Source of the DNA: a virus
DNA length: 64,000 nt
Direction: 5' to 3' (one strand)
IMG/VR virus record: IMGVR_UViG_3300030333_002466
Span: 1-64,000 of that record
This document shows, one piece after another, positions 53,875 through 54,003 of this stretch. The notes under the pieces are model-generated. The model made no database searches. It was not told where the DNA came from and was given only the letters and a program-made list of their open reading frames with translations. The stretch's first letter is position 1. Each line of letters begins with the position of its first letter. The position numbers and the translations under genes are program-made.

Positions 53875-54003
53875 AGATTCACTACAGCAATTCTTACTAA
53901 TGGGGACTGAAGGTCGCTGGTTCGAATCCAGCCCTGCCGCCCAACTAACGATATGCGGCGGGTAGCTCAGTGGTAGAGCGTCAGTATAAAGTAATGTGAA
54001 TCT
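53875..54003 (+). ncRNA. Y RNA-like element 6, permuted tRNA-His-like module
   Basis: Outer helix AGATTCAC/GTGAATCT (53875-53882, 53996-54003), loop TACAGCAA, TTACT/AGTAA (53894-53898, 53990-53994), anticodon-position stem ACTGA/TCAGT (53906-53910, 53981-53985). T arm GCTGG-TTCGAAT-CCAGC (53916-53932). Acceptor CCTGCCG/CGGCGGG (53933-53939, 53956-53962) with C73, CCA and a G-1 (53955), the tRNA-His identity elements. D arm GCTC-AGTGGTA-GAGC (53965-53979). No GTG anticodon is present. Confidence 0.82.

Follow-up and report, generated by a model that had tools for sequence, protein, structure and literature searches.

Judged from sequence comparison, the Y RNA encoded 75 nt upstream of the start of a phage Ro60 gene, which we call element 6 (53874..54004, + strand), is a complete tRNA body in circularly permuted order, in which a spacer links the two tRNA ends and the Ro60-binding (Y) stem takes the place of a closed anticodon loop; it belongs to an open-acceptor subclass of permuted-tRNA Y RNAs. 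Positions are those of the window, the whole stretch of 64,000 nt that was analysed, corresponding to positions 1 to 64,000 of the IMG/VR virus record IMGVR_UViG_3300030333_002466, a viral contig of 86.7 kb. Read from 5' to 3' on the + strand, element 6 begins with the 5' strand of the Y stem (TAGATTCAC, 53874..53882), common to its sister elements and paired with 53996-54004, followed by the TACAGCA motif adjoining this stem (53883..53889), a putative Ro60 contact common to phage Y RNAs, and by a linker. Then come the 3' strand of the anticodon stem (tRNA positions 39-43, ACTGA, 53906..53910), the variable region AGGTC (53911..53915), whose C48 is the Levitt partner of G15 according to the class-wide 15-48 covariation, and the T arm (GCTGG TTCGAAT CCAGC, 53916..53932). 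The 3' acceptor strand (66-72, CCTGCCG, 53933..53939) leads into C73 and CCA (53940..53943; C73 at 53940, CCA at 53941-53943), and an A-rich spacer of 11 nt resembling a trailer plus leader, with the composition of the class spacers (ACTAACGATAT, 53944..53954), connects these to G-1 (53955..53955), which pairs with C73, and to the 5' acceptor strand (1-7, CGGCGGG, 53956..53962), the other half of the covarying helix. The element is completed by T8 and A9 (53963-53964) with the D arm GCTCAGTGGTAGAGC (53965-53979; together 53963..53979), G26 (53980), the 5' strand of the anticodon stem (27-31, TCAGT, 53981..53985; 5/5 pairs with 53906-53910), a second linker and the 3' strand of the Y stem (GTGAATCTG, 53996..54004; paired with 53874-53882).

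An earlier note made from the letters of this DNA had placed the element at 53875-54003, within 1-2 nt of the limits mapped here, and its description of G-1 opposite C73, CCA, and T and D arms was borne out at exact positions. The acceptor of 8 bp that it claimed corresponds to 7 bp, one of them G.U, plus the G-1:C73 pair, and the loop of 11 nt between the acceptor strands is the spacer. The anticodon loop is indeed replaced by a helix leading toward the Ro-binding stem, although a 5-bp anticodon stem had been overlooked. T54-T55 and a D-loop T are also present; YrlA Y RNAs bind Ro60 and are modified by TruB and DusA.

Since the tRNA is permuted, linear tRNA finders and Rfam at its gathering threshold miss element 6. 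ARAGORN gave no match on the unpermuted sequence, while after re-permutation and insertion of an artificial 7-nt loop it drew a perfect cloverleaf, in which the anticodon shown is the artificial one. No Rfam family matched at the gathering threshold; the YrlA model (RF02553) scored 38.2 bits (E 2.8e-6), under its gathering score of 69, as is to be expected because the model has a shorter, closed acceptor hairpin and element 6 is a divergent member. The element adjoins a Ro60/Rsr gene, has the long terminal stem with its motif, and keeps the order T arm, acceptor-like helix, D arm, so that by architecture it is a YrlA-type Y RNA, without being a curated member of RF02553. Thermodynamic folding was weak (z -1.75), and the minimum free energy structure lacked the D and anticodon arms. 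The case for element 6 thus rests on comparison, folding energy alone being unremarkable.

The gene downstream (54079..55491, + strand) encodes a Ro60/Rsr homologue of 470 aa with DUF2828 and DUF7788/VWA domains, identified by Pfam and by comparison of its AlphaFold model (mean pLDDT 81) with the PDB, where the seven best matches were all Ro60. The top one, Ro60 of the Thermus phage phiLo (PDB 9l5y), is the nearest solved fold, although sequence identity is low (16%). Identity reaches about 50% with Ro60 of KVP40-like, Felix O1-like and many uncultured phages, and proteins annotated as 'Ro-like' in mycobacteriophages match by sequence as well. At least four sister Y RNAs lie upstream of element 6, all on the + strand. 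Element 5 (53500..53631) has the same layout, with acceptor ACTCCCC/GGGGAGT, G73-CCA, an AT-rich spacer and one bulged base in the T stem. A second sister (53027..53136) has T and D arms and lacks the acceptor helix, as does a probable third (52442..52537), whose motif is a degenerate CCAGCA. The fourth (52213..52271) is a small Y RNA with a terminal hairpin, TAGA-CTCTTAA-TCTA, that resembles an anticodon stem-loop. A near-identity search of 50,697 phage records found no close relative of the phage, hence there is no direct orthologue series of element 6, and a distant DNA search with the element matched only partial stretches, many of them pieces of ordinary tRNAs. Its nearest positional counterpart is the Y RNA of locus L113, located about 120 nt upstream of Ro60, which differs completely in its acceptor and D arm and keeps G-1:C73 and CCCA.

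For the wider comparison, loci were collected in two ways, by Ro60 protein and by DNA patterns without Ro60, and the open subclass was defined by a perfect 7-bp acceptor, an encoded NCCA exactly at 73-76 and an AT-rich spacer resembling the trailer and leader of a tRNA. The collection contained 51 distinct open (NCCA) Y elements, and we consider it very probable that the subclass is real. In the Ro60-collected set, which was assembled blind to CCA, 5/17 Ro60-adjacent elements whose acceptor helix comprised 6 bp or more had NCCA at the exact position (0.27 expected, p 5e-6), whereas the same 17 elements had 0-1 CCA at every shifted position. A pattern scan made without CCA gave NCCA at the exact position in 7/65, versus 0/50 at shift +1 and 0/43 at shift +2. 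Conversely, 38/47 NCCA elements picked blind to the acceptor formed 7/7 acceptor pairs, with a mean of 6.66 pairs in the 47 elements against 3.68 with shuffled partners. In an alignment of 28 sequences 98.2% of cells were paired and all 7 acceptor pairs varied on both sides; covariation over the whole structure was 0.909, compared with 0.240 in shuffled and 0.14-0.20 in slid controls. The Levitt pair 15-48 was G-C in 23 members, A-T in 20 and A-C in 2 (p 7e-11), T8, A14, TTC and A58 were nearly invariant, and a 5-bp anticodon stem was found in 33% of the class versus 2% of shuffles. The exact placement of NCCA, the acceptor covariation and that of the Levitt pair indicate selection on both the acceptor and the L-shaped core. 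Tandem ordinary tRNAs as a source of the signal were ruled out by the Y-stem requirement and by the test blind to the acceptor.

Ro60 was present in the fetched locus DNA for 23/51 open elements, some of these loci having been collected through Ro60, and elsewhere in the record for 15/25 further records, many of which are fragments. In phages with this system the neighbourhood of Ro60 also includes tRNA arrays, RNA ligases, RtcB or tRNA nucleotidyltransferase, consistent with a conflict over tRNA. When chromosomal relatives were sought by a genome scan, only 5 metagenomic loci emerged, and three genomes searched with the Rfam YrlA model yielded no match. Two open-acceptor mimics (L113:2233 and L115:4767, both - strand) resemble class II tRNAs (Leu/Ser/Tyr) in that their variable arm forms a long hairpin. 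Three other open-acceptor Y RNAs (L175:430, L184:389, and L115:4925 on the - strand) keep what appears to be the 3' part of an anticodon loop (e.g. TTCTAAGCC), a remnant that suggests their origin from tandem tRNA genes that lost their outer halves.

Open and closed acceptor tips differ clearly. In closed designs the helix is capped by 3-8 nt, while in open ones NCCA is usually followed by a spacer of 3-16 nt, only 1-2 nt in some members, and G+C content is 15% in the post-CCA spacers of the open class versus 37% in closed loops. Both forms occur for the same Y RNA gene of the Ounavirinae, for which Mordin and Michonne have the open form (ACCCTTC-GCCA-AACA-GAAGGGT) and the other aligned relatives the closed one; this unannotated gene lies in the Felix O1-like tRNA array (open, GCCA, at L094 and L229; closed at L093, L108 and L230-L235). 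Mordin and Michonne are Citrobacter phages, and closed-form genes are found in K-12-grown coliphages, SUSP1 and Alf5 among them. An encoded CCA was present in 372/440 ordinary tRNAs at NCCA loci, compared with 45/138 at loci of long-loop mimics without CCA. CCA in the mimics thus tracks CCA in the tRNAs of the locus, a pattern to be expected of an end completed during tRNA maturation. At L273, L334 and L256 there are permuted acceptors in which the loop begins with A73 and lacks CCA (at L273, 0/10 ordinary tRNAs encode CCA); these are possible open forms finished by a CCA-adding enzyme. Bacterial RNase P favours U-1 and A-2 (PMC9433436), and N-2N-1 was AT or TT in 24/39 open elements. The leader of element 6 ends in ATAT followed by G-1, and its T at -2 is what a cut in front of G-1, with U at the cleavage site, would call for; the acceptor/T-arm stack, CCA and unpaired leader give the element a geometry that would suit RNase P. 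From the composition of the spacer and the bases at -1 and -2, cleavage of element 6 by RNase P seems plausible. Many related Y RNAs close the acceptor stem with a short loop or lack it, so that Y RNAs in general can function without an open end.

The G-1:C73 pair, the main identity element for HisRS, had led to the proposal in the earlier note that element 6 mimics tRNA-His. The ordinary phage tRNAs of the same loci, over 2,200 in number, had C73 in 48/55 tRNA-His and in 16/2,190 others, and G-1 in 1.7% of the non-His tRNAs. In a first set of mimics G-1 was present in 6/9 elements with C73 versus 1/42 others, and a last scan for new C73 elements added 2/6, one of the six being doubtful. When pooled, 8/15 C73 members had G-1 versus 1/44 others (Fisher 2e-5), a rate not different from that of phage tRNA-His genes (22/48). 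In those genes with C73 (e.g. at L027, L145, L166 and L247), position -1 is T in 23/48 and G in 22/48; as about half have T-1, G-1 may need to be added post-transcriptionally. The leader ATG preceding the acceptor in 5 of the first 6 mimics with G-1 and C73 also agrees with phage tRNA-His leaders. Extension of the helix by -1:73 pairing in general was rejected, since 0/27 G73 members had C-1.

The tRNA-His proposal therefore stands as regards the pair, which goes with C73 across the class, but does not extend to the rest of the acceptor: positions 1-7 of element 6, CGGCGGG, are not His-like (phage tRNA-His begins GTG), there is no GUG anticodon, and element 5 has G73. An acceptor isotype profile of element 6 gave Lys 0.49 and Tyr 0.34; with a resubstitution accuracy of 62% such profiling is unreliable, and no isotype is claimed beyond G-1:C73. 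Most open mimics carry G73 or A73. The earlier note had stated that a homologue without the G-1/C73 pair and with everything else kept would speak against its proposal; G73 and A73 members, element 5 among them, are homologues of this kind. As this sister has G73 and keeps the rest, the pair is a variable feature of the class and does not define it. It is better to say that in these RNAs the discriminator and the -1 base form a coherent tRNA combination, the His-type being one case.

A second class mimics the other end of the tRNA. These are small Y RNAs with a terminal hairpin resembling an anticodon stem-loop, with a 4-5 bp stem and a loop of the form CTnnnAA. In a scan blind to the loop, 34/54 of the 7-nt terminal loops had the form CT-nnn-(A/G)A, for which 1/128 is expected, and the stems are complementary yet varied (TTAGA/TCTAA, TTTGA/TCAAA, TTTCA/TGAAA). 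The triplets, e.g. UUU, CUU, UGU and UCU, mostly end in U, and the Lys-type is the commonest. Of 29 loci fetched by the scan, 7 had Ro60 in the locus DNA and 11 more in their records. The member in the window is the small Y RNA at 52213-52271, with loop CUCUUAA; further members are found at L296, L268, L310, L196, L099, L409, L420, L424, L434, L482 and others. The occurrence in the same Ro60 arrays of apparent bodies without anticodons and anticodons without bodies fits a set of tRNA decoys.

Taken together, we lean, if only slightly, towards the reading that element 6 is a phage Y RNA with an open-acceptor permuted body that is opened by tRNA processing and acts as a tRNA look-alike on Ro60. 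The Y stem with TACAGCA is predicted to bind the phage's own Ro60 ring. The AT-rich spacer that separates CCA from G-1 would probably be removed by host tRNA-processing enzymes, with RNase P acting on the 5' side and endo- and exonuclease trimming on the 3' side. The result would be a two-piece RNA that its stems hold together and that has a mature CCA end but lacks an anticodon. On Ro60, the opened RNA would most likely serve as a decoy or a tether, its partners being enzymes that recognise the body or the acceptor end of a tRNA, e.g. an exoribonuclease or defence nucleases directed at tRNA, and the G-1:C73 pair could bias element 6 toward tRNA-His-specific partners. Whether element 6 is opened in vivo appears evenly balanced from its sequence, and opening is less certain for NCCA members with spacers of 1-2 nt, which are short for RNase P plus trimming. 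A function as decoy rather than as a tether for PNPase is suggested with some hesitation, as falling a little short of an even chance; the tRNA-like domain of YrlA in Salmonella has been suggested to inhibit an anticodon nuclease competitively (PMC7790460). We also entertain, as a possible if doubtful extension, that phages encode sets of Y RNAs mimicking both tRNA halves as Ro60-borne decoys, some of them opened to a chargeable CCA. With the same reserve, such sets could combine permuted bodies having discriminator-specific ends, His-type in this case, with small Y RNAs having chosen anticodon stem-loops, and, just as tentatively, their targets could be tRNA-cutting or tRNA-modifying host defences.

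Element 6 could also be an ordinary YrlA RNA, whose module is never opened and does no more than tether Ro60 to PNPase or another exoribonuclease, CCA and G-1:C73 being relics of tRNA genes. Rfam places both in the same family, closed-loop and acceptor-less members share arrays with open ones, and PNPase tethering is a published role of Y RNAs, shown for Deinococcus Rsr and its Y RNA (PMC7790460, PMC8394870). We regard this as rather unlikely, given that CCA and the rule linking positions 73 and -1 persist though acceptor sequences turn over completely, that open spacers are sharply unlike closed loops in composition, and that the encoded CCA follows that of the ordinary tRNAs of the locus. 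A device specific for histidine, in which HisRS would charge the opened CCA end or the RNA would titrate HisRS or other tRNA-His-specific enzymes, could account for G-1:C73 in element 6 and in 8/15 C73 members, as in phage tRNA-His genes; with acceptor positions 1-7 that are not His-like, and G73 or A73 in most mimics making His one case among many, it is improbable.

The presence of a whole tRNA body in permuted order recalls the circularly permuted genes of algae and archaea, which give working tRNAs, and yet this explanation is very improbable here: the anticodon stem of element 6 opens into the Y stem with neither anticodon loop nor splice motif, the element sits in a Ro60 Y RNA array, and bacteria lack, to our knowledge, the bulge-helix-bulge splicing that joins the ends of permuted tRNAs. 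The same order of motifs would arise from two tandem tRNAs, and in the first scan 5-6 pairs were counted in several ordinary arrays, so a chance placement of a 3' half-tRNA ahead of a 5' half-tRNA in a decayed tRNA array was considered. It is hardly conceivable against 7/7 pairing with covariation, the Y stem, the Ro motif and the co-occurrence with Ro60 across many phages, and was refuted by the covariation test.

The YrlA Y RNAs were reportedly described by Chen in 2014 (RNA 20:1715) and by Wang in 2018 (Structure; PDB 6CU1). Like element 6, YrlA (RF02553) is linked to Ro60/Rsr and combines a Y stem with a circularly permuted tRNA-like module made up of a T helix, a D helix and an acceptor-like helix. 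Its mimicry of tRNA in permuted order is known (PMC11472068, PMC8394870), a permuted superposition on tRNA has been published (PMC11472068), and Y RNAs have been reported in phages (PMC12282133). The difference lies in the tip, as in Rfam a short loop closes the acceptor-like helix, whereas element 6 has a full 7-bp acceptor, NCCA, an AT-rich spacer and a discriminator-dependent G-1. Algal and archaeal permuted tRNA genes share with element 6 the 3' half before the 5' half and a spacer between CCA and G1, which is expected to be removed by tRNA-end processing (PMC3978253, PMC3218864); they give a tRNA through bulge-helix-bulge splicing, while in element 6 the Ro60-binding stem replaces the anticodon loop and no tRNA is possible. 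tmRNA likewise has a tRNA-like domain without anticodon, CCA and an acceptor identity pair, and its 5' end is made by RNase P (PMC3985003), but it is unpermuted, includes an mRNA part and works with SmpB and the ribosome.

With respect to this known mimicry, the open subclass, the discriminator rule and the anticodon-loop form appear to be new: none was found described in a literature search that covered works other than the primary YrlA papers. Within that same coverage, no Y RNA bearing CCA, cut by RNase P or with a permuted CCA was found, which is weak evidence for their absence from the literature. The role of tRNA mimicry in bacterial and phage Y RNAs is an open question that the open class addresses, since the maintenance of CCA and discriminator rules despite sequence turnover points to selection of some Y RNAs as look-alikes of finished tRNA ends, and not as mere L-shaped tethers. 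That dozens of other phages share the design suggests tRNA look-alikes made on purpose. It can now be asked in the laboratory whether the loop is cut, whether the end is charged and which tRNA-binding enzyme is fooled, and such tests are within reach because related Y RNA genes occur in cultured Ounavirinae.

Other features accompany the Y RNAs in the window. A very stable intergenic RNA structure at 52088-52209, with a closing stem of 19-20 bp and three inner hairpins (z -5.8), had no match in Rfam, and a perfect 23-bp inverted repeat at 52279-52440, which closes a structured interior of 116 nt (z -6.5), had no meaningful one. Right before the start codon of Ro60, at 54013-54066, there is a Y-like motif (GTTTGC-TTACAGCA ... 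GCAAAC), possibly a further Y RNA or a leader for self-regulation of Ro60. None of the genes of the window points to a partner enzyme of the Y RNA. Located between Y RNAs, positions 52561-53019 encode a protein with a YqeY domain (57 bits with Pfam PF09424). Given the kinship of YqeY with the GatB tail that binds tRNA, this protein might bind tRNA or tRNA mimics.
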